Shown: positions 1 through 46,513 of the stretch, in pieces
Numbering within the stretch: position 1 is the stretch's first letter
Layout: the number at the start of each line of letters is the position of its first letter
From: a virus
Virus record (IMG/VR): IMGVR_UViG_3300015371_000071
Coordinates: 1 to 46,513 of that record
Strand: one strand, 5' to 3'
Length of the DNA: 46,513 bases
The notes under the pieces: generated by a model
The model's database searches: none
Told to the model about the DNA's origin: nothing
The model's input: the letters and a program-made list of their open reading frames with translations, nothing else
Position numbers and translations under genes: made by a program

Positions 1-4
1 CCCA

Positions 5-20: not shown

Positions 21-62
21 GCCACCAGCAATGACAACCAGATAGATCACAAGGAGAAAGAG

Positions 63-1252: not shown

Positions 1253-1258
1253 CAACAG

Positions 1259-1293: not shown

Positions 1294-1330
1294 GCGCCTC
1301 TCAACCACTAGCCAGAAGGAGACAACAGAC

Positions 1331-1815: not shown

Positions 1816-1949
1816 AGGAGTGGAACGCCCCCATCGACCAAGTGCAGGCGGACTGCATGACACTGCGTGCGATCATCAGAGGCTGGATCACCCAAGCCCG
1901 CGATGAGGTCGCTCGATGGGAGCCACGTCCCTGCCCCAGGAAGCGCTGA
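1797..1949 (+). CDS. Hypothetical small protein, 50 residues
   Basis: The GTG start at 1797 lies inside the end of the membrane-peptide gene, with GGGAG a few bases upstream. The product is amphipathic and probably one long helix (EEVKEWNAPIDQVQADCMT and on), with a Pro/Arg-rich C-terminus. It is the last gene of the rightward unit; its stop is 5 bases before the terminator stem. In-frame ATG or GTG starts further up would run through the neighbouring genes, so the short form is preferred. No family is recognised and the start is not certain. Confidence 0.45.
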   Translation: MAQEEVKEWNAPIDQVQADCMTLRAIIRGWITQARDEVARWEPRPCPRKR

Positions 1950-1951
1950 GC

Positions 1952-2176: not shown

Positions 2177-2181
2177 ACTGG

Positions 2182-2937: not shown

Positions 2938-3014
2938 TCGTCGTCGTCCTCGGGGATGTCGTCTTCGTCGTCGTCGACCTCCGGGTCGGGGACATCGGGA
3001 TCAATGTCGGTCAT
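2934..3014 (-). CDS. Very acidic peptide, 26 residues
   Basis: An open frame with an ATG at 3014 and a stop overlapping the lysin GTG as GTGA. The product is almost entirely Asp, Glu and Pro (MTDIDPDVPDPEVDDDED and on). The GTGA coupling to the lysin and the similar acidic gene at 7816-7914 suggest it is translated, if only to couple lysin expression. It is short and of simple composition, so it may be only a leader peptide. No function is known. Confidence 0.4.
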   Translation of the reverse strand: MTDIDPDVPDPEVDDDEDDIPEDDDE

Positions 3015-3023
3015 GTCACCCCC

Positions 3024-3116
3024 TCACACGCGTCGGATCAGGTAGATGATCCCCAAGATGATGAGGACCAGGATCAGGATCCCGATCGCCCCGTTGAGGA
3101 CAACGTCAGCGAACAT
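3024..3116 (-). CDS. Single-span membrane peptide, 30 residues
   Basis: The product is MFADVVLNGAIGIL followed by a run of Ile, Leu and Val to about residue 27, then RRV. It is one strong membrane span with a positive C-terminal end. It lies just upstream of the lysin block on the same strand. Its position makes it a candidate second holin, an antiholin or a pinholin-like peptide acting with the protein at 1952-2176. The ribosome-binding site is weak to see (GCTGATG at the start), so confidence is moderate. Confidence 0.5.
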   Translation of the reverse strand: MFADVVLNGAIGILILVLIILGIIYLIRRV

Positions 3117-3125
3117 CAGCGGCCG

Positions 3126-3515
3126 CTACTTCTGTTCCTTGCCGGATGATGTCGGACCTTCCTGCTTCACGTTGCCCTTCGCTGCCTCACTGATGGCATC
3201 GGAGTGGGCCTGCACCGCACCGACCTCGCGGATCTTCTCGCCCCAGGCGCGTGCTGTCTCTGACGGGGGCGGGTTCTCGGGGAACTGATCCTGATAGTCG
3301 GGCCGCGACTTCGGCGTCTGACCACCCTGGCCTGACGGCGGGGTGGCCGTGCCCCTGCCCGCAGCCGAGTCGTCCGGGTACTTGGCGGTGTCGATGTCCT
3401 TGACGTTGCCGTACTCGTCGGGCATCGCCTCGATCGGGTGCTCCTCGCGGTTGGCACTGCGCTTGTTCGAGTCGCGGGCCACCTGATTCTGCGTCGTGTC
3501 CTTCGGATTCGTCAT
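3126..3515 (-). CDS. Hypothetical hydrophilic protein, 129 residues
   Basis: A polar, low-complexity protein rich in Lys, Glu, Ser, Pro and Gly, with no membrane span and no cysteine. Residues 1-30 and 95-120 may be helical, and the middle (about 45-85) is Pro/Gly-rich and probably disordered. A good AAGGAGAACAAATATC lies just before the ATG. It sits between the large modular fibre and the lysis genes, so it could be a minor virion component or a late cytoplasmic protein. No family is recognised. Confidence 0.7.
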   Translation of the reverse strand: MTNPKDTTQNQVARDSNKRSANREEHPIEAMPDEYGNVKDIDTAKYPDDSAAGRGTATPPSGQGGQTPKSRPDYQDQFPENPPPSETARAWGEKIREVGAVQAHSDAISEAAKGNVKQEGPTSSGKEQK

Positions 3516-3542
3516 GATATTTGTTCTCCTTGTTGTGAGATT

Positions 3543-7415: not shown

Positions 7416-7426
7416 CCGAAGGTGGC

Positions 7427-7813
7427 CTAGGAGTTGCCCTCGGTGATCGTCAGTGACGTGACGGAGACGGTGCCCCCAGAGACGAAGGTCACCGAGTCGA
7501 AGTTGATGTCGGAGCTACCGAGGCCGACGGTCATGTCAGCCTGGGCGGTGCCGCCCGAGTTCGTCAGCCGTGCCCACGTCGCCGTGCCGCTGGCTGCCGC
7601 GCTGGCAGTCATCGGCGTGTTGAACGTCAACACACCCGACGCCACCGTGCCCGCCGTCGCCTGCAACGGGATGTGTGCCAGCCGGGTGGTGGCGGTGCCA
7701 CCGACTGCCGGCTTGGTGCCGTCGTAGATGTCGAGGAACCCGGACGTGCCGATCGCCGTCAACAGGGCGGTGATGCGGGTGGTGCGGAGCGACGTGATGT
7801 ATCCGATTGCCAT
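7427..7813 (-). CDS. Conserved phage beta-rich structural protein, 128 residues
   Basis: A Thr-, Ala- and Gly-rich beta-strand protein that begins MAIGYITSLRTTRITALLTA and contains DIYDGTKPA, LAHIPLQ and ATWARLTNSGGTAQADMTVG. This pattern matches a small structural family found near fibre genes in many tailed phages, typified by a YDG-x-x-P motif and a G-x-A-x-W-x-R-x-x-x-x-x-G-x-x strand; the match is from memory. It lies 11 bases before the fibre gene and 2 bases after a small acidic gene, so it is probably made together with the fibre as a base, collar or decoration subunit. It has no catalytic motif. Confidence 0.75.
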   Translation of the reverse strand: MAIGYITSLRTTRITALLTAIGTSGFLDIYDGTKPAVGGTATTRLAHIPLQATAGTVASGVLTFNTPMTASAAASGTATWARLTNSGGTAQADMTVGLGSSDINFDSVTFVSGGTVSVTSLTITEGNS

Positions 7814-7815
7814 GG

Positions 7816-7914
7816 TTAGTTGTCCTTCTCTTCGTCGTCGTCCGGTTCGTCGGGCGGCGGCGTGAATGTCCCGGTGCCTTCGATGACATCGGGTTCGGTT
7901 TGCGGGTCGCTCAC
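7816..7914 (-). CDS. Small acidic peptide, 32 residues
   Basis: It starts at GTG with an excellent AGGAGGAATCAA upstream, which decides the start against longer in-frame possibilities. The product is acidic and Pro-rich, ending PDDDEEKDN, with no hydrophobic core. It lies between two structural genes with gaps of 2 and 10 bases. Its composition resembles the 26-residue acidic peptide before the lysin. It may be a real small protein or a translational relay; no function is known. Confidence 0.55.
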   Translation of the reverse strand: MSDPQTEPDVIEGTGTFTPPPDEPDDDEEKDN

Positions 7915-7924
7915 TTGATTCCTC

Positions 7925-8335
7925 CTAGGCGGTGACGCAGTACAGCGTGTTGGCGTTCTTCGGACTGATGGCTGCGTACTCGGCGGCGGTCCCCTTCCAC
8001 ACGGCGACGAGACCGTTGAGCGCGGCCGGGACTCCGAGCGTGGTGCGCATCTGTGCTGTCGATGTGGCAGCGAGCAGAGTCCTGGCAATGTTGGTGACGA
8101 CGGTGTTGTCGAACGTCCAGATCGACCCGGAACCGGTCACGATGATGTCGCCCTTGTCGCCGTTGGTGACCCCGGTGCCACCGGTGCCACCACCACCACC
8201 GCCACCACCGACAGCGAGGTCAGCGGCGATGGCCTTCTTGGTCACCCCCGCCTGCTGCACGATGATCAGGTCACTCGGACCGAGGGGCAGCGCAGCGGGC
8301 GGCAGGGCATCAATCGTGGTGGTGGGCGTGGCCAT
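7925..8335 (-). CDS. Small tail appendage protein with Gly-hinge, 136 residues
   Basis: The start at 8335 follows AAGGAAGTAACG, 2 bases after the end of the giant gene; the longer frame upstream would lie antisense-like inside that gene and is rejected. Residues 1-45 (DLIIVQQAGVTKKAIAADL) match an N-terminal pattern common in tail fibres and spikes. A poly-Gly hinge at about 43-52 and a GDKGDIIV segment follow. The C-terminal half contains AEYAAI-x6-NTLYCVT, a short motif often found at the end of small fibre or base proteins. It is probably a short tail appendage or adaptor for the larger fibre. Confidence 0.7.
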   Translation of the reverse strand: MATPTTTIDALPPAALPLGPSDLIIVQQAGVTKKAIAADLAVGGGGGGGGTGGTGVTNGDKGDIIVTGSGSIWTFDNTVVTNIARTLLAATSTAQMRTTLGVPAALNGLVAVWKGTAAEYAAISPKNANTLYCVTA

Positions 8336-8337
8336 CG

Positions 8338-11300
8338 TTACTTCCTTGCCAGTTCGGCTTGGGTGCGACGAGCGTCGCGGCGAGCGTAGTAGTTGCGCCG
8401 TCGGGTGGATTGCCGCAGCGGATCGGTCAGCTGGTACACGGGTGCGCCGGCGGCGCGCAGCCACGTCTCGTCGGTGCGCCCCTCGCGCACGCCTCTGTTG
8501 TCGGTGAGTCGCTCGATCAGGTTGAGGGTGGGGATCGTCGAGCGCGCCATGTGGGCATAGCGATCGTCGAGCAACTCGTGTCCGGTGGTGCCACCGGGCT
8601 TGGTGCCACCGAGCAACCGGAACAGTGGCATCAGCGCGCGCATCGCTGCTGATGGCTCCTCGTAGTTCTCCTCGACCGGGGCTCCGGTGTACAGCTTCTG
8701 GTTGAAGCCGAACGCTTCGAGCGGAGCAGCGATCATCGGGTTGATGTTGACGCTGCCACCGATGGCACGGCCGAGGTCACCCTGAGACAGCGCCACGAAG
8801 GGCTCGGCTACCCGCAGGTGCGGCAGGGCGGGGGCCAGGTACCACGGGGCGTCAGATCCCTCGGCGTCCTGGTTCATCGTGAACGCACCCTGGCTCAGCC
8901 AGTAGTCAGGGGTCAGAGGATCAGCGGCCTCGGAGAAGTTGCGCACGAAGTGCTGGTACTGCAGGTAGGTCCGCGGGCGCAGCCACATCGACTCGATCTG
9001 CAGTGGGATGTTGCGGCTGATGTAGGTCCAGAACGGGATCAGCCGGCGGGCCTGGTGGTCGAGGGACGACAGCGAGTTGTAGTCGAAGTGGTAGCGGGCG
9101 ATGCGCTCCATCGCTGCGCCGAGGGTCTGGCCCTTGGTCATCGAGTCGAGGGCCATGCCGAGACGCAGCGCACCTTCGACCGACGAGCCGGTGCGCTGGT
9201 TCCACCGCGTCAGCGGGTTGTTGAGGAGGCGCCCCTTCTCGCGGTTGGCCACGTCGGTGAACACGCCGGCCGCACCCGAGCCGAACACCGCTTGCAGTGC
9301 ACGCTGCACGTCGGGCGGTGCGTTCTGCGTGTACTCGAAGGGGTTGGCGACGAAGTCCTTCCAGATGCGCCGGGCCCGTGTCATCTCACCGATGCGCACG
9401 TTGTCGACCAGGTTCATGAAGATGCCACTGATCAGGTTGCGCACATGGAACCCAGGCGTGGCGGTGGCATAGGTCTTGAAGAACTGGGTGTAGTAGTCGC
9501 CGATCACACCCCAGGTCTGCGGCTTGCGCATCGCCGTGTTCATGTTGTTGATCGAGCGGTAGAGCTCGGAGCGGATGAGCATGCCGTCCGAACCCTGGGC
9601 CAGCTTGGGCAGCATCGGCACCCAGCCGTCGTTGATCTGCCACTTCATCACGTCGGCCACCGATGCCGCACCGGAGGCGAAGTCGGCGAGGCGCTTGGTG
9701 ATGTCAGCGTGGCTGAGCTCGAGCCCTTCCAGCTGGCGCAGCTGGTCGTCGGCACCAGCGAGCAGGCTCTCGATCATGTCAATGCTGGCCTGGTCCTCGG
9801 CTGGCACCAGCCTGCGCTGAGCGTTGATCTCGCGCAGGTCCTTGATGTGAGCCTTGAAGTCCGGGCCGCGGATTCCTTGGAAGTCGAGGGCCGCGGCGCG
9901 CTCGAGCCGCTTGTTGGTGATCTCGAGGCCCGCCTCGGTGTCGAGGATGCGAGAGCGCACGGCAGCCAGGCCGCGGTCGGCCGAGGCCACGGCGTCGGTG
10001 TAGGTGCGCTGCGCCGCTTCCCACTTCTGGCGCTGCGCCACCATCGCCTCGCCGGCAGCCTGGTCTGCGGTGGCGGCAGCGGCATCGGCCTCAGCCATCC
10101 GCTTGTTGACGTCTTCGGTCATCGTCGCTGCCGTGGCGGCGCCCGGCTCCCCGGACAGGAACGCCTCGGCCTCGGCGCGCTCAGCCTCTTGGGCTGCGAT
10201 CTCGGCGTCGATGTTGCGGCCCTGGTAGGTGTCGGCCAGGGTCTGCAGCCGGGCCCGCTGCGCGTTGGCGTCGTCACGCGCGCCACGCAGGGCCCGGCGC
10301 ATCGCCTCGACCGGCTCGAGCTCGGCCTCCAAGCGGGACTCGATCTGGGGCAGCGCGCCCTGGCGGAACGGACCCGACAGCGCCGAGCGCACGCCGGTCA
10401 CGTCGGCGACGACGTTGCCGATCTTGCCGACCGACGCGCCGCGCTCGACCATGCCGGGGGAGGGGATGCCCCGACCGCGGCGCAGCACGTCGGCCGATGG
10501 TGTGCCCTTGGTCAGCACCTGAGCCCACTGCCAGGTCACCGCTCGCTGAGGCACCGTCGCACCCTCGACCACGCGTGCGGTGAGTGCCTCGGCGGTGGCG
10601 GCACGGCGTGCAGTGGCGAGGCGTGCCTTCTCTGCCGGCCACATGTCGGCGCGCTGAGTGGCCAGCTTGCGCACCCGCGCTGCCACCTGTGCCCGTGCCT
10701 GCTCGAAGGAGTCGGTCGATGCTGCGATCGCTGCCTCGCGTTCGGAGACGGGCAGGTTCATCAGGTCGGGCAGGTCGGGCGGGCCCTGGGCGTCGAGCCC
10801 TTCCAGCTGGCGCACCGCGGCGTCGTACTCCTGGTTGAGCGTGGGCCAGTCGAGCGCCTGGTCGGGGTCCTCGGCACGCAGCGAGGCGTCGACCTCACCG
10901 AGGCTGTCGGCTGGCGTGTCGGCCGGCACGGTGTGGGCCGGGCCCTCCTGGCGCAGCTTGTTCAGCGCAGCCTCAGCCTCATCCGCGGCCGCCTGGGCCT
11001 GGTCGAAGGCCTGCTGCGCGGCGTCGAGTTGGTTGGTCGTGCGGGCCGGCGCGCCCTCACCGCGCATCGCTGCGGCGTAGGCATCGCTCGCCGCCTTCTG
11101 CGACTGCTTCGGCTCGCCCTCCCACTTGCGCCGCATCAGGTCCTGGAAGTCGTTGAGCGCCTGCTCCTCGGCCTGCGGGTTGCCGGCCGCTGCTTCCATC
11201 GCTGCATCGAACTGCGTGGTCGCACGCAGGATCTCACCCTGAGACAGCTGGTCCTCGGGCGTGTCGGGGTGGCGGGCAAGCTCGGGGATGGACTCGAGGT

Positions 11301-14300
11301 CGACCGGGCCCGTGGCCTGCGCCCCGGCCTGGGTCTCCTTGGCCTGGCTCAGTGCGTGCTGGGCGCGGTTCAGCTGGTCGCGGGCGTTGGCCGCTGACGT
11401 CTCGGCGCTGGCCACCTGGGCCTCGTAGGCCACCTGCGGGTTGGCTTCGGGCGTGGGCTGCACCGTGGACACCGGCGCCGTGGGGTCGGTCATCACCCGG
11501 CCGTCGAGCTCGCGCTGCATCTGCGTGATCTCGTTGATGCGGTCGTAGTCACCGGCTTCGACGGCGCGCTGCATCTGGTTCTCGAGCTCGGCGGCGCGGG
11601 CGTTGATCGTCTCGACGACACCCTCGGGCAGCACCGAGCCAGAGAACGATGCCATCTGGCGGTCGATGTCGGCGACGGCATCCATCGTGTGGTGGCCGAG
11701 CATCTCGAAGGGCTCGCGTGGGTCGGTGAACTTGAGGTCCTTCATCACCGCACCGAGTCCGATGCGCATGTTGTCGACCCGCTGCTTGCGCATCTGGCGC
11801 ATCAGCAACCGCTCGCGTGCTGTCTCGTCAGCGACCAGTCCGATCTTGCTGAACCCGTCGACCACGAAGCGGCGCAGCTTGGTGCGGTCGAGCTCCTGGC
11901 GGGACATGGCGTAGCCCAGCGACTGCAGCTTGCCGTTGAAGCCGGGCGTGCCGGGGGAGAACCCGAGCCCGAGCATCGACACCAGGTCCACCGACTTGCG
12001 GAGCTCGTCGTTGTGGTGCGCCTTGGCTGCCGAGCGCAGCTGCTCGCGGAAGGCGTCACGCAGGGTGTCGTCGGTGACGAGCTCGCCGGCTGCGGTCGCA
12101 TCCATCACCACCCGCTCGGCGTTGTGCAGCAGTGGCAGGTCGCTGCCGAGTGCGGTGCCCAGGCCGCGGAACACGTCGGCCACCTCGTCGGCAGTGAACG
12201 TGCGGGAGGTGTCGAGCTTGGGGTGCAGCAGATCGTCGAGGCCAGCGAGCCAGCCCTCGCGGCTGGCCATGCGCACCTCGTCCAGCTGCTCGCGCGGGAT
12301 CATCAGGATCGCCTCACGCAGCTGGCGCAGGTCCTCGAGGCTGGGGTCGACGGTGCCGAACAGCAGCGACCGTGCCTGGCCGGTGACCGGGGGCATGTTG
12401 AAGCGATTCTGCAGCAGCCGCAGATCCTCGCGGGTGGGCACACCCTGCACCCCGAGCATCTCGTGCAGCATGTTGACGAACTGGCCGACCGCTTCGCCCT
12501 GCTCGGGGCCGTAGAGCAGGTGCAGGGTCTCGGCCCCGCGGGCGGTGAGCTCCATCTGCCCGCTGAGCAGGTCGGTGAGGAACTGTGCCCCGCCGTCAGC
12601 GGTGGCAGCAGCCAGGTCGAAGTGGTCGCCGAGCATGGCCCGCGTGTCGTCGACCGCCTTGGTCAACTCGTCGAGGTAGTTGCGGGCATCGGTCAGCTGC
12701 TCGGGTGTCATCCGCTGGAACTGGTTGAGGGCGTCGATGCGACCCTGCGTGAGCTCGACGAGCTCGCGCTCGTGCGGCAGCAGCTTGCCCGACAGCTGGA
12801 TGTCAGCGGCGTGCTCGGCCGCAGCCAGGGCCTGGGGCAGTTCCTCGAGGCGCACCGCATCGCCGGGCTTGCGCCGTCGCTTGGCCCGGTTGGTGACCTC
12901 GCGGATGGTGGCCTGCAGCTTCTCCACGTCGGGGAGCTCGGGCCCCATCTGGTCCATGATGATCTGACGCTGCAGGCGCAGGTCCTTGTTGATCGAGCCG
13001 TCGAGCGCGGACAGTCGGGTGCGGCGCTTGGACAGCGCAGCACGCAGCGAGTTGATGGCGTTGTCGTTGCCCTGTGCCAGCTTGCGGGCCTCCTCGAGAG
13101 GGATCTCGGCCACGTCCTTGCCCTCGCGCAGTACCCGCGACGAGATGACGTGGGTCGGCTCGACCCCGTGCAGCTGGGCGTAGGCCTCGATGGCTGGGCT
13201 GGTCACCTTGCGTCGGCGCTTGGGGGCACGGGCAGCACGCTCAGCCTGGCCGGCGGTGCGCTGGTCCTCGGCAGCGAGCAGGCGTCGCGCCTCGGCCAGG
13301 TCGCGCTGCTCGGACGTGGTGAGGCGAGCCTTGTCCTCGAGCCTGGCCACCGTGTTGTCGGCTTCGATCAACTCGCTGGCGCGTCCCTCGAACGAAGCGA
13401 TGCGCTGCTCGAGTCCACGCAGGCGGGCCCGAGCCTCGGGGGTGGTGACCCCGGCAGCGCGCAGGCGCTCGGCCTCGGCACGCACCCGCTGGATGTTGGT
13501 GGTGATGACGTTCTCTTGGCCCCGCTCGACACGGGCGATCGCCGCCTCCAAGCTCGGCCGCAGATAGGCGGGGATGTCACCGGAGTCCAGGGCAGCACGC
13601 GCCTGGTCGGTCGTCATCATGAACTCGTCCTGCACCACCGGCTGGTAGCGCACGATGCCCGAGCCGTTCGACTCGGCCTCACCGATCGCATCCTGCAGCC
13701 GGCGTGCGCCCTGCTCGAAGGTGCGGATCTCCGAGTCGGCACGTCCGATGCCAGCCTCCAGCCGGACCCGGTGCTCGCCGATCGACTGGGCGTCGCGCAC
13801 CATGTGGCGGGCATCGTTGAAGTCGGTGACCGACCAGTCGAGCTCGTGGACCTGGGCCTCGATCTCGTTGACCACCCGGTCGATGACCTGGTTGATCGTG
13901 CCGTTGCTGGTCGGGCGCTGCTGTTCCAGCTGGGTGAGCGTGCTCCGGTTGCGGTCGATGCGCTTGCGCGCCGTGGTCATGCGGCCCTTGTCCTCGGACG
14001 TGAACGTGCCATCGAGGCGCTTGGCATCGAGCTCGGCGATCAGGCGCTGGTCGTTGGCGATGGAGTCCTCGAGCGGGATCACCTTGGAGAGGTGGCGGAG
14101 CTCGTCCATCTGCTCGCCGGTCAGGCGGGCGGCCGCCAACTCGGGGGGTAGCTTGGTGCCGAACGTGGCCTGCCAGCGCCGGTACATGGCCGAGGGCTCG
14201 GTGCTCGCCAGCGCAGCCTCGGCCCGGCTGATCTGCTTGGCCAGGATCTCGGACTCCTGGCCCAGCCCGACGCTGAGGATGTACGCCGCCACCGAGTCCG

Positions 14301-17300
14301 AGGGCTCGATGCCCTGCGACATCGCCCGGCTGTAGCGGACCATGAACTCCGCCATGCGATTGACGTCAGCGGCCTGCTGCTCCAGCTTGTTGACGGCGAA
14401 GCTGGTGGGGTTGGCTCCGTAGCGCTCGAGTGCCTGGCCGAGCCCGGCGATCGAGTCGTTGATGTACCCGGCCACGTCGACGCGCCTGAGCTCACGGTCA
14501 GCCACCGGCAGCGCACCGCGCTCCACCAGGTCGGGCATGGCGGTGTCGCGCAGGTAGCGGGCCAGGCGGTAGGACTTGCGGGCCCGGTCGGCGATCTCGT
14601 AGCTGGGGTTGCGCTTGCCGCCCTTGCCGGCACCACGGTCGAGGGCGCGCATCGCCTCTTCACGCGGCTGCATCCGGCCACGCCGTAGCTCGGCGAGCGG
14701 CAGGTTCTCCTCGTACTGGGTGACACCCTCGGGCAGCTGGACCCTGCCCTCGATCGCCTTGCGCTGTACCGCCGTCGGATCGAAGGCCCCGCGTGCCTCG
14801 GCCAGCAGGTCCAGCTGGTCGTACACCCGCTCGAGCCGGCGCTCGCCCAACTCGTCGACCGCGCCGAGGCCATTGCGCATGGCACCCCGCAGGTCCTTGA
14901 TCGTCTGGCGAGCCTTGGCCACGATCGGGTTGCGGACCCCGCCCGTGAAGTTGTGACGCTCGCGGATGATGGCGGTGGCGTTGTTCCAGGCGATGCGCTC
15001 GTCAGCGCTCAGCCCGCGCAGGCCGAGCGCCTCGGCCTCGGTGATCTGCGGCACGTCGTTCCAGCGCGTGTGGTAGCTGAGGAGCCGCGCCGAATCCGAC
15101 AGGGCCTTCGACTCGTCGGCGTTGATCCGCCGGGCCTGGCGCTCGTAAGGCCCGACGCCCTCGCCAGTGAACGGGTTGCGTGGCCTCGGGGCTGCCTCGG
15201 CGGCGCGCACTGCGTCGGCGTAGGCCTGGTCCCGGCCCTTGCGCTCGGCGATCTCGCGGCTGTGGGTCGACAGCTTGCTGACCATCTGGTCCAGCTGCTG
15301 CTCACGCTCGACCACCTGGGAGTAGTGGGTCAGCTTGGTATCGAGCTCGCTCATCACCGACTCGAGGCGCTTCGAGCGCAGCCCCGCCTTGGTGATGGCG
15401 TCGTACTGGCGCTGGGTGAGCTCGACGTCGGGCCGGAAGTGACGCTTCTCGAAGGCGGCCATCGCTTCGTTGGCCTTCTCGAGGCGCTCGGCGGCGGCGC
15501 GCGCCGTGGCATCGAGACGGCGAACCTCGGCGTTGGGCTTGACCGGTCCCGCCCCGCCTTCCAGCTTGGCCTCGCGCAGCTTGGCATTGGCTGCCTCGAC
15601 ACGCCGCCGAGCAAGCTGCCACTCGCGCTCGGCATCGGTCAGTTCCTGGGCCAGCCCATAGCCCTCGAGGTCGTTGACCTCACGCAGGCGGACGTTGCCG
15701 TTGGCATCGAAGACGTACTCCTTGCCGGGCCCGGTCGTGTCGGCGAGGAACTGCTCGAGCCGCGCCTTCTCGGCCTCGGCCTGCCCGCGCTGGGTGCGCA
15801 GCACGAGGTACTTGCCGCCCTCGGTCGACTGCATGAACTCGCCCTGCTCGGCACGCAGGCGGGCGTGGTCGGCACGCATCGCCGCCGCCTGCTCGGGTGT
15901 CATCGACAGTGGCGGGTGGACCGGGACCATCGGCTCGACGGAGTTGCGTGCGGCAGTCGTCGAGCTCCGGTCGATCTCGCGGGCGATGCGCACGAGCTCG
16001 GTGTGCTGCTCAGCCAGAGCGCGGGCGTCGGCCTCCGCCGCCTCGCGCAGTTGGTTGAGCTCACCGCGCAGGTCCTCGTACGCCTGGCGGGACTGGGCGT
16101 ACAGGCCCGTCTCGAACTCGCTCATCATCGCCCGGTGGGCGTTGAGCTCGTCACGCTTGGCGGCGACGCCGATCAGGTCCTGCTCGCGCATACGGTAGGT
16201 GGCGAGCGTGTGGGTGTCGGCCTCGAGCTTGAGCTTGGCCCCCTCCAGTGCGCCAGCGTGGGTGTAGACGTAGTCCTCGAGGTTGCGCCGCGACTGCACG
16301 AAGTTCCGTGACGCCGCCTCGATGCGCTTGACCTGAGCGGAGGCCTGCTGGTTGGCGGCGAAGGCGGTGCGGCGCTCCTTGTTGTGGAACCTGGTCACCG
16401 CGTCGGCCGACATCTCGGGACGGTCGTAGACCCGGTCACGCAGACCCTGCTCGGCGGCTATCGCCTTGCGCTGGGCGAGCACCTCACCCTGTCGGGCCTC
16501 GGCTGCACCGGGCAGGAACAGCGACAGGAACCCGTTGTCGTCGGCCAGCTGATCGGCGGACTCCGCCTTGATCCGGGCCTCGGTGATCATGTCGTGCAGC
16601 GAGCCGATCGCCGAGCGGTCACGCTGCAGGCGCAGCATCCGCAACTCGGCGTCACGCTTGCGCGTGCGCGCTGCGGTGCGGGCATCCTGCTCCAGGTTGC
16701 GCGCCGTCACCGGGATCTTGGAGAGCTCATCGTTCAGCTGGTCGTGCGACAGCGCCAGCACGCGGGCGGCCTCAGCCCGCTCCGCACCGAGGCGGTTGAG
16801 CTCGCCGGCGGTGTCGTTCCAGATGTTCTCGAGGGCAGCATCGAGCGTGCCGAGCGATGGGACGGTCTCGGCGGGCGCACCGTAGGGCACCCGCCCGAGC
16901 AGCTGGGAGAAGCGCTCGTCCTGATCCAAGGCCGTGTGCAAGGCGGCGCGCTGGGCCGCGGACAGGGCGGTCATCTCGTCGATGGAACCCTGCAGGCGTG
17001 GCTTCAAGAAGCCCGACGACACCGCGTGCAGGCCCTTGGCCATCTCGATGCGGGCCTCGTCCATCTGCGACCCGAGGTCGTTCAGCTGGTCCTTGAGGCG
17101 CAGCTGCTCCTGCTCGTTGGCGAGCTTGGTCCCGACGTCGTCGACGATCTCGCGCATCGCCTCGTGGTCACCCTTGTTGCGCAGCAGCCCGCCCTTGGAC
17201 TGCAGCAGCCGGTTAGCCCCCGTCTTCTTGCCGACATCCTCGGCCAGGTTCTGGATGTAGCGCAGGCTGACCTTGTCGAAGTCCTCCTCGAACAGGTTGA

Positions 17301-18846
17301 AGGACTTGCCGGTGACGCGGCGGAACTCGGTGTTGATGTCGCGCGTCGTGGCGTGCTCGGGGAGGTGCAGCTTCACCCCGCCGATCTCGATGTCGCCGCC
17401 GCTGATGTGGCGGGTCATGACCGAGGGCGAGTACTCGTCGAGGCTGTGGCCGGCCCCGAAGATGTTGCCGCCGGCCGACTCATCGATGCCCGAGTACCAA
17501 CCCTTGCCTTCCTTGGTCATGTAGCGCGGGAAGTAGTGCACCCCGCCGGCGGTCTCGGGCCCGACGCGACCGTGCTTGATGCGCACGTCCTCGAGCATCT
17601 TGGCCATGCTCTCGTAGAAGGTGTTGCCGGCCTGGCCGCCCTGTCGCTCGACGAGCTCGGTGTAGTCGGCCATCGACATGCCCTTGGGCACCTCTTGCAG
17701 CGTGCGATGGAGTTGGGCCTCGGCGGTGCGGGCGGCGAAGCGCTTGCCCATCTTCTCGGCCTGGGCGTAGTTGATCGTCTCGAGGGCGGTCGACAGTTCC
17801 ATCGTCCCGCGCCCCGACAGCACCCGATCAGCGGCTTGGACGAGGCCCTCCTCGACGCGACGAGCACGCACCCAGCTGCCGAGCGGGCTGGCTGCCAGCG
17901 TGGCGCGACCGCGTGACGCCGTCCCACCAAGGACACGATCGACCGTCGCTGATGCCGGCAGGCGGAACTCGTGCTCGGTGAAGGGGAAGCGGAAGTAGTA
18001 GCCAGCAGGCTTGATCTTCTCGGCCCCCTCGGCGAACATGCCGCCGGCCGCCTCGCTGGCTGCACGCACGGCGGCGCGCTCGGAGTCCTTCAAGCCGTGG
18101 ATGCCGTAGCGGGCAGCGCGCTCGGCCAGCGCCTGGTCGCCGGTGAGCTCGAGCACCCGAGCCGACAGTCCGAGGCGGGCCTCACGACCAGCGCCATGGA
18201 GGATGCCCGCCCCACTGACGTAGGTCAGCGGGTCGAGAGCGAGGTCGCCGACGAACCCAATGGCGTCATCGAGCCAGATGTTGCCGGTCGAGGGAACGAT
18301 GTCGCCGAAGCCGATGTGCTCGTTGGTCTGGCGAACGAAGTCAGACCAGCTGGCATCGCCACCGTTGAACACGTCGGCGATCTCGTTCACCCCCGAGACG
18401 ATGGCGCTGTGCCCGTAGTCGAGCAGGTTGAGCGGGGCCATGATCGCCCGGCCGACCGGGTTGTTGACCACGGTGCCGAGGGCCCGGCCGAACGTCTCCT
18501 TGAGCATGCCGTGCAAGCCCTGCTCGCCAGGCCCACCTCCGCCCTGCTGGGGCGTGGGCGCCATCGTGTGGGCCAGCATCTCGTCGAGCGAGCGCACCGG
18601 GGGAGCGGTGTTGGGCATCGCCGGCTGCCGTGCCTGGCCCACCTGCGGTGCGCTGACCTGTGGCGCCTGGTACCCACCACCACCGAAGCTCTGCTGCTGA
18701 CGGGGCTGGTACTGCGCCGGGGCAGCGCGCGACTGCAGGATGCGCTGCGCGGTGCCGGCGTTGGCCCGCGGCCGGTCGAGCACGCGCGTCGGCGAGTACG
18801 CCGTGACGGCGTTGCGTCGGCTGACAACCTCCTGGAGGTTGGCCAC
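8338..18846 (-). CDS. Giant internal virion/ejection-type protein, 3502 residues
   Basis: This one gene takes over a fifth of the window. The N-terminal 110 residues are Pro/Gln/Gly-rich and flexible. Residues about 110-230 contain hydrophobic helices, including IGFVGDLALDPLTYVSGAG, a motif I associate with giant structural proteins of phages. A folded part near 435-500 holds VHYFPRYMTKEGKGWY. From about 550 to 3000 the sequence is almost continuous Ala/Glu/Arg/Gln coiled coil. The C-terminal part has PGFHVRNLISGIFMNL (about residue 3130) and RYHFDYNSLS with RRLIPFWTYISRNIPL (about 3247-3275), typical of the C-terminal region of large polyvalent phage proteins (LPD38-like, from memory). It starts with GTG in a TAGTG overlap. 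The context suggests a capsid-borne protein ejected with DNA, comparable in role to T7 gp16. No lytic transglycosylase motif was found. Confidence 0.85.
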   Translation of the reverse strand: MANLQEVVSRRNAVTAYSPTRVLDRPRANAGTAQRILQSRAAPAQYQPRQQQSFGGGGYQAPQVSAPQVGQARQPAMPNTAPPVRSLDEMLAHTMAPTPQQGGGGPGEQGLHGMLKETFGRALGTVVNNPVGRAIMAPLNLLDYGHSAIVSGVNEIADVFNGGDASWSDFVRQTNEHIGFGDIVPSTGNIWLDDAIGFVGDLALDPLTYVSGAGILHGAGREARLGLSARVLELTGDQALAERAARYGIHGLKDSERAAVRAASEAAGGMFAEGAEKIKPAGYYFRFPFTEHEFRLPASATVDRVLGGTASRGRATLAASPLGSWVRARRVEEGLVQAADRVLSGRGTMELSTALETINYAQAEKMGKRFAARTAEAQLHRTLQEVPKGMSMADYTELVERQGGQAGNTFYESMAKMLEDVRIKHGRVGPETAGGVHYFPRYMTKEGKGWYSGIDESAGGNIFGAGHSLDEYSPSVMTRHISGGDIEIGGVKLHLPEHATTRDINTEFRRVTGKSFNLFEEDFDKVSLRYIQNLAEDVGKKTGANRLLQSKGGLLRNKGDHEAMREIVDDVGTKLANEQEQLRLKDQLNDLGSQMDEARIEMAKGLHAVSSGFLKPRLQGSIDEMTALSAAQRAALHTALDQDERFSQLLGRVPYGAPAETVPSLGTLDAALENIWNDTAGELNRLGAERAEAARVLALSHDQLNDELSKIPVTARNLEQDARTAARTRKRDAELRMLRLQRDRSAIGSLHDMITEARIKAESADQLADDNGFLSLFLPGAAEARQGEVLAQRKAIAAEQGLRDRVYDRPEMSADAVTRFHNKERRTAFAANQQASAQVKRIEAASRNFVQSRRNLEDYVYTHAGALEGAKLKLEADTHTLATYRMREQDLIGVAAKRDELNAHRAMMSEFETGLYAQSRQAYEDLRGELNQLREAAEADARALAEQHTELVRIAREIDRSSTTAARNSVEPMVPVHPPLSMTPEQAAAMRADHARLRAEQGEFMQSTEGGKYLVLRTQRGQAEAEKARLEQFLADTTGPGKEYVFDANGNVRLREVNDLEGYGLAQELTDAEREWQLARRRVEAANAKLREAKLEGGAGPVKPNAEVRRLDATARAAAERLEKANEAMAAFEKRHFRPDVELTQRQYDAITKAGLRSKRLESVMSELDTKLTHYSQVVEREQQLDQMVSKLSTHSREIAERKGRDQAYADAVRAAEAAPRPRNPFTGEGVGPYERQARRINADESKALSDSARLLSYHTRWNDVPQITEAEALGLRGLSADERIAWNNATAIIRERHNFTGGVRNPIVAKARQTIKDLRGAMRNGLGAVDELGERRLERVYDQLDLLAEARGAFDPTAVQRKAIEGRVQLPEGVTQYEENLPLAELRRGRMQPREEAMRALDRGAGKGGKRNPSYEIADRARKSYRLARYLRDTAMPDLVERGALPVADRELRRVDVAGYINDSIAGLGQALERYGANPTSFAVNKLEQQAADVNRMAEFMVRYSRAMSQGIEPSDSVAAYILSVGLGQESEILAKQISRAEAALASTEPSAMYRRWQATFGTKLPPELAAARLTGEQMDELRHLSKVIPLEDSIANDQRLIAELDAKRLDGTFTSEDKGRMTTARKRIDRNRSTLTQLEQQRPTSNGTINQVIDRVVNEIEAQVHELDWSVTDFNDARHMVRDAQSIGEHRVRLEAGIGRADSEIRTFEQGARRLQDAIGEAESNGSGIVRYQPVVQDEFMMTTDQARAALDSGDIPAYLRPSLEAAIARVERGQENVITTNIQRVRAEAERLRAAGVTTPEARARLRGLEQRIASFEGRASELIEADNTVARLEDKARLTTSEQRDLAEARRLLAAEDQRTAGQAERAARAPKRRRKVTSPAIEAYAQLHGVEPTHVISSRVLREGKDVAEIPLEEARKLAQGNDNAINSLRAALSKRRTRLSALDGSINKDLRLQRQIIMDQMGPELPDVEKLQATIREVTNRAKRRRKPGDAVRLEELPQALAAAEHAADIQLSGKLLPHERELVELTQGRIDALNQFQRMTPEQLTDARNYLDELTKAVDDTRAMLGDHFDLAAATADGGAQFLTDLLSGQMELTARGAETLHLLYGPEQGEAVGQFVNMLHEMLGVQGVPTREDLRLLQNRFNMPPVTGQARSLLFGTVDPSLEDLRQLREAILMIPREQLDEVRMASREGWLAGLDDLLHPKLDTSRTFTADEVADVFRGLGTALGSDLPLLHNAERVVMDATAAGELVTDDTLRDAFREQLRSAAKAHHNDELRKSVDLVSMLGLGFSPGTPGFNGKLQSLGYAMSRQELDRTKLRRFVVDGFSKIGLVADETARERLLMRQMRKQRVDNMRIGLGAVMKDLKFTDPREPFEMLGHHTMDAVADIDRQMASFSGSVLPEGVVETINARAAELENQMQRAVEAGDYDRINEITQMQRELDGRVMTDPTAPVSTVQPTPEANPQVAYEAQVASAETSAANARDQLNRAQHALSQAKETQAGAQATGPVDLESIPELARHPDTPEDQLSQGEILRATTQFDAAMEAAAGNPQAEEQALNDFQDLMRRKWEGEPKQSQKAASDAYAAAMRGEGAPARTTNQLDAAQQAFDQAQAAADEAEAALNKLRQEGPAHTVPADTPADSLGEVDASLRAEDPDQALDWPTLNQEYDAAVRQLEGLDAQGPPDLPDLMNLPVSEREAAIAASTDSFEQARAQVAARVRKLATQRADMWPAEKARLATARRAATAEALTARVVEGATVPQRAVTWQWAQVLTKGTPSADVLRRGRGIPSPGMVERGASVGKIGNVVADVTGVRSALSGPFRQGALPQIESRLEAELEPVEAMRRALRGARDDANAQRARLQTLADTYQGRNIDAEIAAQEAERAEAEAFLSGEPGAATAATMTEDVNKRMAEADAAAATADQAAGEAMVAQRQKWEAAQRTYTDAVASADRGLAAVRSRILDTEAGLEITNKRLERAAALDFQGIRGPDFKAHIKDLREINAQRRLVPAEDQASIDMIESLLAGADDQLRQLEGLELSHADITKRLADFASGAASVADVMKWQINDGWVPMLPKLAQGSDGMLIRSELYRSINNMNTAMRKPQTWGVIGDYYTQFFKTYATATPGFHVRNLISGIFMNLVDNVRIGEMTRARRIWKDFVANPFEYTQNAPPDVQRALQAVFGSGAAGVFTDVANREKGRLLNNPLTRWNQRTGSSVEGALRLGMALDSMTKGQTLGAAMERIARYHFDYNSLSSLDHQARRLIPFWTYISRNIPLQIESMWLRPRTYLQYQHFVRNFSEAADPLTPDYWLSQGAFTMNQDAEGSDAPWYLAPALPHLRVAEPFVALSQGDLGRAIGGSVNINPMIAAPLEAFGFNQKLYTGAPVEENYEEPSAAMRALMPLFRLLGGTKPGGTTGHELLDDRYAHMARSTIPTLNLIERLTDNRGVREGRTDETWLRAAGAPVYQLTDPLRQSTRRRNYYARRDARRTQAELARK

Positions 18847-33239: not shown

Positions 33240-34390
33240 GTCGGCAGCGTGGTCGCCAGGGGTGGCGGGTCTTCGGCCCAGATCTCCGACAGCGCAGTGA
33301 TCTCGACGCGGAACCCCTTGTCGGAGGCGACACCGGACACGACCTTGATCGGCACGGTGTAGTAGTTGGCGGTCCTGGTCACCTTGCCGTTGGTGAGCAC
33401 CTCGAAGACGGAGCCGGTGGCGCCGCGGACACGGAACCGGCACGCCTTGGGGTTGGCAGCAGTGAACGCCACGATGGCGTCGAACGTCGACGCCCGGTTG
33501 TAGCCGTTGTCGTCGTTGACGTGGATGTACATCTCGGTGAGCGCGGCGTTGGTGCGCACCTGCCCGGCACCGGGGGGCGCGGTGATGGTGTTGGAGTACT
33601 GCCAGAAGGCGGTCAGCTGGCGGGTGTAGAAGATCTCGACGCGCAGGGCGGCGAGGTCGGCGCCGTGGCCGGTGCCTGCCTGCTGGAGGGCGGCGATCTG
33701 GGCGGCCTGGGCGGCGACGGTGCCTTCCAGCGCGGTGATGCGGGCGCCGTAGTCGTCGAGGGTGTCGCCGCGCTGCTCGATCGTGGCGTCGAGGGTGCGC
33801 AGCGCGGCGTGGAGGATGGGGGTGAGCTTGGAGTGATCCATCATCCACGCCTGCCAGACGCCGGGCGGGGTGGTCTCGTTGCCGTGGTCGTCCCAGGTGC
33901 GATCGTGGACGTTGCCGTGGCCGGGCGAGACGACGCCGTTGGAGATGCCGTTGGGCCATTGGGCGGCGACGCGTTGGGCGCAGTAGCCGACGTGGCGGAT
34001 CTCGGGGACGCCCTTGTAGTTGAAGAAGTACGGCTCGATGGTGCGCATCCACTGCATCGCCAGGTCGTCGTCGATGTTGACGATGTTCTCTTTGAGGTCT
34101 TCGTCGGAGGTGGTGAGGAACCCGGCGGTGGTGGAGGTGGCTCGGGTGATGCGGCCGATCTCGGTGCCGGCCGAGCGGATCGACATGTGGATGGCGCCGT
34201 CGACGTTGCCGCTGCCGGTGCGGTTGGAGATGAAGTTGGGGTCGGTGCTGTCGTCGATGTCGACTTCGATGGTGCCGGTGAACCCATCGGGGTCGCTGTA
34301 GATGACACCGATACGGCGCTGCGAGTCGAAGAAGGCGCGGCGTTCGGCCGGCGTGTTGCGCGGCTGGAAGCCACCCTTGGCCATGCCCAT
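33236..34390 (-). CDS. Fibre-like protein with internal S74 chaperone and C-terminal extension
   Basis: A 384-residue protein located between the small and large terminase genes. Residues 25-90 are beta-rich (TGTIEVDIDDSTDPNFISNR). An S74 domain begins near 93 with TTSDEDLKENI (S95, K100) and contains YFFNYKGVPEIRHVGYCAQR. A helix at about 190-236 (ITALEGTVAAQAAQIAALQQ) resembles the usual terminal coiled coil. Unusually, another 145-residue beta domain follows (240-384), although S74 is normally the C-terminus. The start at 34390 overlaps the small terminase stop as TGATG; an ATG two codons in is also possible. It is probably a short fibre or surface protein. Confidence 0.75.
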   Translation of the reverse strand: MGMAKGGFQPRNTPAERRAFFDSQRRIGVIYSDPDGFTGTIEVDIDDSTDPNFISNRTGSGNVDGAIHMSIRSAGTEIGRITRATSTTAGFLTTSDEDLKENIVNIDDDLAMQWMRTIEPYFFNYKGVPEIRHVGYCAQRVAAQWPNGISNGVVSPGHGNVHDRTWDDHGNETTPPGVWQAWMMDHSKLTPILHAALRTLDATIEQRGDTLDDYGARITALEGTVAAQAAQIAALQQAGTGHGADLAALRVEIFYTRQLTAFWQYSNTITAPPGAGQVRTNAALTEMYIHVNDDNGYNRASTFDAIVAFTAANPKACRFRVRGATGSVFEVLTNGKVTRTANYYTVPIKVVSGVASDKGFRVEITALSEIWAEDPPPLATTLPT

Positions 34391-34806
34391 CAGGCGTCTG
34401 CTGTCATCGTGCGCCTGATGATCACATCGAGCTCGGCGTCGGTGAGCATGCCGATCGCCTTGGCTCCTGACTCGCGCTCGGGGCTCATCTGCTTGATCGC
34501 ATCGAGGTACAGCTTGGCGGCGGCGACGTGGCGTGGGTTGCGCGGATCGCTGGCCGCTAAGTAGAGGGTGTCGAGCACGGCCTGGCGCTTGTCGAGATCG
34601 CCGATGACCTGGTCGGTCTCGCCCTGCCAGGCCTCGCGGAACTCCCGGTCGTGCTTCCAGTTGTAGAGCGTCTTGACGTGGACGTCGATCATCCGGGCGA
34701 ACTCGGCCTCGGTCGGCGGTTCGCGCTGGGTCGGCGGCGTGGTCAGCCACTCGATGAAGCGCATCTTCTCGGGGTCCTGGCGCACGGGGACGTAGGGCTT
34801 GGACAC
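34390..34806 (-). CDS. terS: Terminase small subunit
   Basis: A 138-residue protein at the head of the leftward unit. Residues about 32-60 (TEAEFARMIDVHVKTLYNWK) form a helix-turn-helix of the small terminase type, used to recognise the packaging site. The C-terminal part (YLAASDPRNPRHVAAAKLYL) is the helical oligomerisation region with the typical N/D-P-R-x-x-x-A-x-K-L-Y-L pattern. It starts at GTG, apparently on a leaderless transcript, because a likely -10 lies only 6 bases upstream. The packaging site is usually in or near this gene, but I see no obvious cos sequence. Confidence 0.85.
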   Translation of the reverse strand: MSKPYVPVRQDPEKMRFIEWLTTPPTQREPPTEAEFARMIDVHVKTLYNWKHDREFREAWQGETDQVIGDLDKRQAVLDTLYLAASDPRNPRHVAAAKLYLDAIKQMSPERESGAKAIGMLTDAELDVIIRRTMTADA

Positions 34807-42288: not shown

Positions 42289-42323
42289 AAGGGCCGCGAT
42301 CCCTAGGGATCGCGGCCCTTTCG
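42289..42323 (+). terminator. Strong palindromic terminator
   Basis: A perfect 32-base palindrome with arms AAGGGCCGCGATCCCT, followed by a short T-run (CCCTTTCGG). It begins 6 bases after the stop of the 256-residue gene. It should end transcription efficiently, at least on the plus strand, and probably isolates that gene from the small-gene block downstream. Confidence 0.85.
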
Positions 42324-42366
42324 GCCGTTCTGCCGCGTCCCCAACGAGGGCGCGGCATCGTCGCGT

Positions 42367-42421
42367 CCCGACCCATGAGGCTCATGGGGTCGGGGTGCGC
42401 GGGTGGGCAATTTCGGCCCAC
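42367..42421. repeat. Two further hairpins before the 139-residue gene
   Basis: The first, 42367-42394, pairs CCCGACC(C)ATGAG with CTCATGGGGTCGGG, with one bulged base. The second, 42403-42421, pairs GTGGGC with GCCCAC around AATTTCG. The block TTCGGCCCAC in the second also occurs at 46503-46512, at the right end of the window. With the terminator at 42289 they fill the 188-base gap and precede the leader CAACCAGACAGGAACC. Confidence 0.6.
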
Positions 42422-42471
42422 ACAACACGCTCATGAGCCATCAGCAATCACAACCAGACAGGAACCAAACC

Positions 42472-42891
42472 ATGACCATGACCATCACGGCCACCTTCGA
42501 GTGCGCCGACCTCGCAGAGTTCACCGAGTGCATGAGCTTCGTGCGCGACAACGAGCCCACCTCGATCACCATCGAGGGCACGTTCACGTTCGACTACTCG
42601 GACATGGACCTCACCCCAGCGCATGGGATCGAGCGCATCAGCGAGCGCGACATGACGATGAACCACGCCGTGCAGCACTACATCGCCGCGTTGGTGGCGT
42701 GGACGCGTGAGCACATCACCGAGGGCCCGATCAGCCAGGTGTCCGACGCGCAGCTGCGTGGTGCCTACGACGACATGATCACCTACGGGCTCGACACCGA
42801 TATCGAGGACTCGTGCGACCTCACGCTCGAGCAGGCACAGTGCATCCGCGGCGCCTTCCGTGACGCCACAGCGGGCATGGTGCCGCTGTGA
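42472..42891 (+). CDS. Hypothetical acidic protein, 139 residues
   Basis: The start is after the conserved leader CAACCAGACAGGAACCAAACC. It is acidic, with beta strands first (TMTITATFECADLAEFTECM, SITIEGTFTFDYSDMD) and helices after (MNHAVQHYIAALVAWTREHI, LTLEQAQCIRGAFRDA). The strand-helix order could be a small ferredoxin-like fold. It ends in a GTGA overlap with the next small gene. No family is recognised; it belongs to the accessory block. Confidence 0.7.
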   Translation: MTMTITATFECADLAEFTECMSFVRDNEPTSITIEGTFTFDYSDMDLTPAHGIERISERDMTMNHAVQHYIAALVAWTREHITEGPISQVSDAQLRGAYDDMITYGLDTDIEDSCDLTLEQAQCIRGAFRDATAGMVPL

Positions 42892-43159: not shown

Positions 43160-43171
43160 ACCATTCACCCA

Positions 43172-43207
43172 GACAAGCCCTATCCGCCGCCGCGGATGGG
43201 GCTTGTC
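43172..43207 (+). terminator. Hairpin between accessory blocks
   Basis: GACAAGCCCTATCCGC pairs with GCGGATGGGGCTTGTC, a 16-bp stem with one G-U or T-G wobble and a 4-base centre. There is no strong T-run after it. The leader CAACCAGACAAGGAGAAACC and the gene at 43246 follow. Confidence 0.65.
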
Positions 43208-43245
43208 GTCGTTCCCCAGACCAACAACCAGACAAGGAGAAACCA

Positions 43246-43557
43246 ATGGACCAGACACTCTCAGAACTGATCGAGGTGAGCGAAGCCGTCTACGGCGACA
43301 TGCCGCCCGACGTGCGCGAGGCCCTCGATGAGATCATCGCCGGCATCACCCGCGATCTCGGTGAGTCACCCGAGGCGTGGCGCGGTGCGGCGCGCGTGGT
43401 GCTCGAGATCATGCGCGGCATCATCGAGTCGAACAGCGTGATGGAGCTCGACAGCACCGGACGCTTCATGCTGCTCGTGCTCAGCCGCTTCGTCGCCCTG
43501 CCGTGGGCGAACCAGGCGCTCGAAGCGATGCGCATGGCGCACGAGGCGGCGTCATGA
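43246..43557 (+). CDS. Hypothetical helical protein, 103 residues
   Basis: It has AAGGAGAAACCA before the ATG, one of the clearest ribosome-binding sites here. The protein is acidic and all-helical by pattern (LSELIEVSEAVYGDMP, VREALDEIIAGITRDL, AARVVLEIMRGIIESN, FMLLVLSRFVALPWANQALE). It has no cysteine and no membrane span of full length. It overlaps the next gene as ATGA, and the two probably form a pair. The function is unknown. Confidence 0.7.
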   Translation: MDQTLSELIEVSEAVYGDMPPDVREALDEIIAGITRDLGESPEAWRGAARVVLEIMRGIIESNSVMELDSTGRFMLLVLSRFVALPWANQALEAMRMAHEAAS

Positions 43558-44519: not shown

Positions 44520-44551
44520 CGAGCCCCTTCCCGGCAACGGGAAGGGGCTCG
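44520..44551 (+). terminator. Hairpin after the accessory block
   Basis: CGAGCCCCTTCCCG and CGGGAAGGGGCTCG pair over 14 bp around a GCAA tetraloop, a very stable GNRA loop. It lies 15 bases after the stop of the 53-residue gene. No T-run follows, so it may act as an RNA stabiliser or processing boundary as much as a terminator. Confidence 0.75.
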
Positions 44552-44561
44552 TGGTCGTTCT

Positions 44562-44610
44562 CCGCCACGGCCACACGGGGTGCCTGCCTCACTCCGTGTG
44601 GCCTTGGCGG
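44562..44610 (+). repeat. Second hairpin before the AAA+ gene
   Basis: CCGCCA-C-GGCCACACGG pairs with CCGTGTGGCC-T-TGGCGG, 16 pairs with one mismatch, enclosing a 15-base loop. Together with the hairpin at 44520 it fills the 147-base gap before the AAA+ gene. Confidence 0.65.
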
Positions 44611-44624
44611 TGCATGACCATGCA
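44611..44624. promoter_or_regulatory. Operator-like palindrome before the AAA+ gene
   Basis: TGCATG-AC-CATGCA is a perfect 6-bp inverted repeat with a 2-base centre, the same layout as GCATGA-CA-TCATGC at 34853-34866, with five or six bases in common per half. It lies 28 bases upstream of the ATG at 44653. It could be a second site for the ribbon-helix-helix protein. No clear promoter is visible next to it. Confidence 0.3.
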
Positions 44625-44652
44625 TCGCATCAACCAACCAGAAGGACAACCA

Positions 44653-46269
44653 ATGCCAACAACACAAGAAGTCGCCCGCGCCCAGATCGTGGCGATGATG
44701 GCAGCCGCCCGTGGTCAGATCGTGACCGCGGACGAGTCGATCCTCTACCACGGCGAGCCCAACCGGGCGATCTACCTGGCCGACAATCCGAAGCAGTCCA
44801 AAGAGGACGCCATCACCGTCCTCCAGGAAGCTGTCGCGGCCGACAACGAGTACAACTCCACGAGCCGCGTCTTCCACCACCGCCCCGGCGATGGTGCGGT
44901 CGCCGTGAACTGGGTGATGCACGACCTGTTCGGCCAGCTGCTCGGGCACAAGACCTGGGTGCAGGACCCTCAGCAACTCGATGTCGAGATCAGCTACGGA
45001 GTGCACAAGCAGGTCCCCTACGGGCTGTGCAAGCTGCCCCCCGAGTTCGGCCGCAAGGCGCTGCTGTCGATCGGGGCCACCATCGACCCGGTCTACGGCC
45101 CGGTGTTGAAGCTCGAGGCGTCGTCGGTGCTCAAGGCACTGCCGGCGCTGGAGAACCTGTTCGACCGCGTGCAGGAGCGACTCGAGACGCACTCGATCTA
45201 CCGCGGCCAGGCGATCTACGCCTCCGAGGTGCCCAAGTTCATGGACGTGCAGAGCCCGTCGCGCGAGGTGGTGTTCACCGAGCGCACATCACGGCGTCTC
45301 GACTTCAAGCTGTTCAGCTTGATCGAGAACGAGCACATCCACCTGGAGTTGGGCAACGACGGCAAGATCATCATCTGGCTGCACGGTGACTTCGGCACGG
45401 GCAAGAGCGAGCTCTTGGCCAAGCTGTCGCGCATGGCCCAGCGCCATGGGTTCAGCGTCATCCAGGTGCGACCGGGCATCGACTCGTGGGACTTCGCCAT
45501 GCAGTTGGTCAAGATGCTGGCACCACGCTGCTTCTGCATCGTGGAGGATGCCGAGTCGGTGACCGGGGTCGACAACCCCGGCCAGGTGGCCAAGATGCTC
45601 GACCAGCTGGACGGCACCGATGCCAAGACGATCCCGCAGTCGACGTTCGTGTTCACCACCAACTACATCGACAAGGTGCAGAAGGCGGCGACGCGGCCGG
45701 GCCGAGCGGATGCGATCATCCGCTTGGGCAACCTCGATCGGCCGGGCTGCGAGCGCTTGGCCGAGTTGGAGCTCGGCGACCAGGTCAGCGACGACATCGA
45801 CTACGACCGCGTCTACGCGGCGTGCGGTGGCGTGGTGCTCGACGACGGAGGGCTGCCCGCCCTCAACGACGACGGCGGGCTGATCTTCAAGGCCGAGGCC
45901 GACATCACCCCGGCGTTCATGCGACAGGCCTTCAACATCGCCAAGACCGCAGCCGCGCTCGAGCGTGGGCTGCACGCCAAGGTGACGACGGAGAACCTGC
46001 TCGCCGGCATCGAGGACCTGCAGGAACAACTGCTGATCCACAACGCCGCACCCGAGCCCAAGCCGCGTGAGCAGCTGAACGTGGCGCTGGCCCAGGCGCT
46101 GTCACCGATGGTCAATCAGGTCATCGCCAAGCAGTTGGAGAGCTACACCTCGACCATCTACGAGCAGGCCCGTGAAGCAGCAGACTCGGTCGTGGAGACC
46201 CGCATCCACGGGGCGAACATCGTGCGCGAGACCGATGGCGAGACGTGGGCATCGGTGCGTACTCAATGA
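44653..46269 (+). CDS. AAA+ ATPase
   Basis: A 538-residue protein with CCAGAAGGACAACCA before the ATG. The first 235 residues are a distinct N-terminal part with no recognised domain (YGLCKLPPEFGRKALLSIGA). The AAA+ module has Walker A GDFGTGKS (245-252), Walker B FCIVEDA (E298, D299), sensor-1 in TFVFTTNYID (N337) and a likely arginine finger in TRPGRAD (R348/R351). A C-terminal helical part (about 430-538) follows. The R-P-G-R pattern is like FtsH/Cdc48-type unfoldases. No partner such as a protease or VWA protein is adjacent. It may remodel a host or phage complex; the role is unknown. Confidence 0.85.
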   Translation: MPTTQEVARAQIVAMMAAARGQIVTADESILYHGEPNRAIYLADNPKQSKEDAITVLQEAVAADNEYNSTSRVFHHRPGDGAVAVNWVMHDLFGQLLGHKTWVQDPQQLDVEISYGVHKQVPYGLCKLPPEFGRKALLSIGATIDPVYGPVLKLEASSVLKALPALENLFDRVQERLETHSIYRGQAIYASEVPKFMDVQSPSREVVFTERTSRRLDFKLFSLIENEHIHLELGNDGKIIIWLHGDFGTGKSELLAKLSRMAQRHGFSVIQVRPGIDSWDFAMQLVKMLAPRCFCIVEDAESVTGVDNPGQVAKMLDQLDGTDAKTIPQSTFVFTTNYIDKVQKAATRPGRADAIIRLGNLDRPGCERLAELELGDQVSDDIDYDRVYAACGGVVLDDGGLPALNDDGGLIFKAEADITPAFMRQAFNIAKTAAALERGLHAKVTTENLLAGIEDLQEQLLIHNAAPEPKPREQLNVALAQALSPMVNQVIAKQLESYTSTIYEQAREAADSVVETRIHGANIVRETDGETWASVRTQ

Positions 46270-46466
46270 GCACCCGCATCTGGGGCGATGACAAGCCCCG
46301 CATCTGCTGCCTGTGCGGCGAGACGTTCATCGGCTTGGGCAACAACCCCGAGCCGCTGGACTCCGACCCCGAGCGTTGTTGCGATCCGTGCAACGACACC
46401 AGGGTCATCCCGGCCCGCATCTGGGCGATCAAGGGCAAGTGGGCGGTCAAGGGCAAGGACAACTAG
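46266..46466 (+). CDS. Small zinc-finger protein, 66 residues
   Basis: It starts in an ATGA overlap with the AAA+ gene. Cysteines in ICCLCGETF (C-C-x-C) and RCCDPCND (CC-x2-C) can form one zinc ribbon, and the C-terminus is basic (KGKWAVKGKD). The overlap suggests it is co-translated with the ATPase and could be its adaptor. It is the last gene before the right end of the window; the zinc protein at 63 would be next if the ends join. Confidence 0.7.
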   Translation: MSTRIWGDDKPRICCLCGETFIGLGNNPEPLDSDPERCCDPCNDTRVIPARIWAIKGKWAVKGKDN

Positions 46467-46491: not shown

Positions 46492-46507
46492 GTGGCGGCA
46501 GGTTCGG
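46492..46507. repeat. Right arm of the end-spanning inverted repeat
   Basis: GTGGCGGCAGGTTCGG is the exact reverse complement of bases 5-20. It begins 26 bases after the stop of the last gene, about where the hairpins at 1259, 43172 and 44520 lie after their genes. A smaller stem (CGCGC...GCGCG) at about 46470-46485 precedes it. Confidence 0.85.
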
Positions 46508-46513
46508 CCCACC

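Follow-up and report, generated by a model that had tools for sequence, protein, structure and literature searches.

The phage analysed here has its closest described counterparts in three records. One, IMGVR_UViG_3300014326_000367 (G003), is 31,471 bp long, with same-sequence copies in samples 3300025941 and 3300005356. Another, IMGVR_UViG_3300005544_000011 (G016), carries an exact 80-bp direct repeat at its ends (L095 1–80 = L097 6297–6376), lying within an ORF that is open across the join, and therefore closes in silico into a circle of 46,296 bp. The third, Podoviridae sp. ct52p938 (MW202803.1), is recorded as circular, at 42,055 bp, and shows the same layout of two opposed gene units that is described below.

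The window, by which we mean the whole stretch of DNA under study, is deposited as a virus record 46,513 bp in length, from a tailed phage with a P22/SU10-type portal. Its rightward genes run from ~34.9 kb to the window end and continue from position 1 to ~1.95 kb, while the leftward genes extend from ~34.8 kb down to ~2.2 kb. The two units converge at an 18-bp hairpin with a 4-nt loop followed by TTTT (1954–1993), a likely terminator; the layout is that given in the preliminary description, one rightward and one leftward unit meeting at a single terminator. Among the proteins encoded on the minus strand, one of 1290 residues in the virion region (3543–7415) shows laminin-G-like, apiosidase-like and collagen-binding-like domains and is possibly a glycan-degrading tail protein. 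Another, of 3502 residues (8338–18846), has no Pfam or PHROG match, and in relatives it is mostly its C-terminal part that is conserved, plus pieces of the N-terminal part. The virion RNA polymerase of phage N4 is of this size; an enzyme of that type acting with hairpin promoters was considered on account of the size and rejected, as it finds no support in Pfam or PHROG matches. A 7975-bp contig from sample 3300015374 (L002, IMGVR_UViG_3300015374_000377) is 99.975% identical to window positions 31711–23737.

Gene order across the window ends

Relatives were gathered through a scan with the portal protein, and the records behind the longer ones were searched with two proteins from opposite ends of the window: an AAA-family ATPase at the right end (44551–46269, plus strand, start codon tentative; Pfam AAA, 8.7e-05, and synteny) and the hypothetical protein g2 at the left end (427–1071, plus strand). 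The portal scan found some relatives, whereas single-protein scans of viral contigs with the ATPase and with g2 found none. Annotated phages gave no matches in a megablast search with positions 1–8000 or in a tblastn search with g2, and no relatives of the major capsid protein (MCP) appeared in bacterial or archaeal genomes, so that no prophage copy or host was found. Homologues of the ATPase, 28–30% identical, occur in Gordonia, Mycobacterium, Salmonella and Erwinia phages.

In G003, G016 and a further relative, G013, the ATPase gene and g2 adjoin, with g2 3′ of the ATPase gene, and gene order is continuous across what are the ends of the window. G003, for which most of the larger window proteins were mapped, is colinear through the junction in the order f8, f9, f10, f11, ATPase, g1, g2, g3, g4, followed by the convergent, endolysin-like gene r1. 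There, the ATPase gene lies at 14993–13338, g1 at 13068–12700 and g2 at 12710–12051, and the same 1.2-kb sequence is also present in samples 3300025941 and 3300005356. The first gene past the junction in the window, g1 (63–440, plus strand), encodes a hypothetical protein with a 64% identical counterpart beside the ATPase module of G003; on the other side, a small ORF, f12 (46266–46466, plus strand), stands between the ATPase gene and the window end, where G003 has a different small ORF. The G016 circle, in turn, runs through the region homologous to the window junction. The window itself has an end overlap of only 6 nt, too short for closure in silico, as compared with the 80 nt of G016. Nevertheless, the synteny, the G016 circle and the circular MW202803.1 together argue that the window ends are neighbours, in keeping with the earlier proposal that the genome closes at its joined ends, and the placing of both ends side by side in one circular phage gene map is well supported by these sequence comparisons.

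A conserved hairpin at the junction

The left arm of the hairpin, 46492–46507 (GTGGCGGCAGGTTCGG, plus strand), is the exact reverse complement of the right arm, 5–20 (plus strand), as previously noted and recomputed here. When 60-nt stretches of the same window were paired at random 3000 times, the longest reverse-complement match was 13 bp, and therefore a 16-bp match at both window extremes is not due to chance. Direct end-to-start joining gives a 16-bp stem with a 10-nt loop, the structure originally proposed. The stem stands; the loop requires correction. The motif CCCACC is found at both ends (1–6 = 46508–46513, plus strand; probability of an overlap of at least 6 nt, 0.0013) and is the sole direct end overlap longer than 2 nt in the window. 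Two length comparisons bear on it. The corresponding frame of G003 measures 15 + 6 + 15 = 36 nt, a length that the window hairpin (16 + 4 + 16) shares when CCCACC is taken as a single copy and not otherwise. Likewise, TTCGGCCCAC and GCCAYCAGCAATSACAACCAGA stand 15 nt apart both in the collapsed junction and in an internal copy near 42413. From these comparisons it follows that CCCACC is one copy read twice, made up of the loop plus the first two nucleotides of the right arm, and that the true loop is CCCA, 4 nt (1–4, plus strand). With CCCACC counted once, the window would map as a circle of 46,507 bp, with a hairpin of 16-bp stem and 4-nt CCCA loop; this collapsed structure has a folding energy of −23 kcal/mol as DNA and of −35.7 kcal/mol as RNA. 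The window as deposited, with its ends unjoined, has no match to known RNA families above the gathering score (Rfam 15), and a scan of viral contigs returned no exact match to the joined hairpin sequence. A scan for the 15-mer motif GCAATSACAACCAGA returned mostly unrelated contigs, as expected at that length.

G003 has a hairpin, CGCGGCGGCAGGTTGG-ATTTGC-CCAACCTGCCGCCGCG, at the same place, between the small ORF past the ATPase gene and g1, and it is followed by CCATCTGCAATCACAACCAGACAAGGAG and then by the g1 start codon. Fifteen base pairs correspond between the two hairpins: 13 are the same, two are changed on both sides (compensatory) and none is broken, while the loops are unrelated. G016 and G013 also show strong hairpins, with G-U pairs, directly 3′ of the ATPase gene. 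Pairing kept despite sequence change, including the G-U pairs, points to a structure selected in RNA. Past the right arm the window reads GCCACCAGCAAT and G003 reads CCATCTGCAAT; as no U-run stands there, this is no intrinsic terminator of the canonical type.

Next comes a leader, GCCACCAGCAATGACAACCAGA..AAGGAG, the latter being a Shine-Dalgarno motif (21–62, plus strand, 5′ of g1), which recurs at 42439–42474, in G003 and in the contig G033; within it begins the cassette CAACCAGAT..AAGGAG..ATG (35–65). The preliminary description had remarked on the same cassette inside the rightward unit, and four comparable combinations of hairpin and CAACCA..AGGAg..ATG cassette could indeed be located between rightward genes (~1259–1333, 42289–42474, 43167–43248 and 44520–44655). 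The junction hairpin can be described as a family-conserved intergenic hairpin preceding a leader/Shine-Dalgarno cassette. In the transcript it may act in processing, stability or partial termination.

Assembly break or physical terminus

A second phage is broken at the equivalent place. Contigs G004 and G033, both from sample 3300043499, overlap exactly over 127 bp at one end each, within the scaffold gene (L100 end/L111 start), and therefore adjoin in one assembly graph, as one genome of 46,541 bp. Their other ends both lie at the homologous junction, where the first base of G033 is the homologue of window position 1; joined directly, these ends also form a hairpin, weaker and bulged, and they presumably abut.

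To what extent hairpins coincide with breaks was scored on relatives, 66 of whose contig ends could be placed within other contigs, counting perfect hairpins of at least 9 bp. Three of the 66 ends fell in such hairpins versus 0.42 expected (P = 0.009), an enrichment that rests on three ends. Two of these three start at the loop edge or within the loop and, like the window ends, carry a single arm (P = 0.013). Both lie in coding sequence, by position and reading, the first in an apparent terminase nuclease region, the second inside the terminase match of G013, close to where that contig begins. Since no terminus is expected at those coding sites, assemblies of these phages can be cut by hairpins. 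Miscalls in Illumina data have been reported after inverted repeats and GGC (PMC3622629). On the other hand, the window contig was assembled through its own 18-bp hairpin at 1954–1993, which is as stable, and through several 14-bp hairpins, and in three samples assembly passed through the G003 hairpin, which is just as strong; a hairpin is therefore no sufficient cause, and strength alone does not decide where a break occurs. For the window ends, an assembly break associated with the hairpin is the most likely cause; that the hairpin itself stopped the assembly, as the earlier suggestion had it, is plausible, with modest statistical support.

The best-surviving alternative, which we consider unlikely, is that the packaged DNA of this uncultured phage group has cohesive (cos-like) ends cut within the conserved 16-bp hairpin, ~12 kb from the terminase genes. 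On this reading, library preparation would have filled in a 5′ overhang of ~6 nt, CCCACC, and the circular map would represent intracellular circular or concatemeric DNA. The end overlap of exactly 6 nt, improbable by chance, is compatible with such a short complementary overhang; a fixed terminus would also give the break of G004 and G033 at the homologous base, with ends nearly abutting, and hairpins of equal or greater strength elsewhere in the window were assembled through. However, the site is continuous in the circular G016 and in the three samples of G003, the terminase small-subunit gene (34390–34806) is ~11.7 kb away, the 6-nt overlap sits one base off the dyad centre, and relatives break at hairpin loops in coding sequence as well.

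It is considerably less probable that the window ends are not adjacent, with sequence missing between them and the hairpin match arising by chance or from two separate repeats. In favour of this, relatives carry different small genes between the ATPase gene and the hairpin, so gene content is variable here. Against missing sequence stand the exact 16-bp complementarity at the extreme ends, the hairpin length shared with G003 and the similar totals of 46,296 bp (G016), 46,541 bp (G004 + G033) and 46,507 bp (window). Finally, a linear genome ending in inverted terminal repeats or in covalently closed hairpin telomeres, as one palindrome-like arm at each end might suggest, is scarcely credible, since the terminal bases form no inverted repeat for any k from 1 to 199 (4 and 6 nt separate the arms from the ends), the loop lacks palindromic symmetry, relatives have the complete hairpin within an uninterrupted gene map, and the proteins scanned, covering part of the ORFs, gave no match to a protein-primed polymerase or protelomerase.

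A circular map and its relatives

All together, we favour, with a probability of roughly 80%, an essentially complete tailed-phage genome with a circular gene map, cut by assembly in the intergenic hairpin between the ATPase block and g1. Assembly would have stopped inside this strong hairpin, hence the deposit as a linear contig; each contig end probably ran through its own arm and the loop, leaving CCCACC as an overlap too short for the assembler to join. This reading draws on closure by synteny, on the hairpin found here in relatives and on the equivalent break in a second phage, which together suggest an ordinary phage genome of ~46.5 kb rather than a linear molecule with special ends. An open-ended record would thereby become an essentially complete circular map, with loop and length corrected by 6 bp, and two IMG/VR records, G004 and G033, become pieces of one phage genome. 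In this phage group, hairpins can cut contigs of similar size, which can then be miscounted as incomplete or linear.

Compared with the known systems, the window is closest to G003, with which it shares the gene order at the junction, the 16-bp hairpin at the same place, and portal and MCP proteins that are 86% and 94% identical, respectively; G003 differs in being unbroken at the hairpin, in its 6-nt loop and in the small ORF preceding the hairpin. G016 is alike in architecture, approximate size and the hairpin right after the ATPase gene, and it differs in its ATPase (42–44% identical), in the hairpin sequence, which is unrelated, and in that no g1 was detected. MW202803.1 is a distant relative with a smaller genome and a portal protein 40% identical, in which a rightward unit with an ATPase-like gene and a primase likewise faces a leftward structural and packaging unit.
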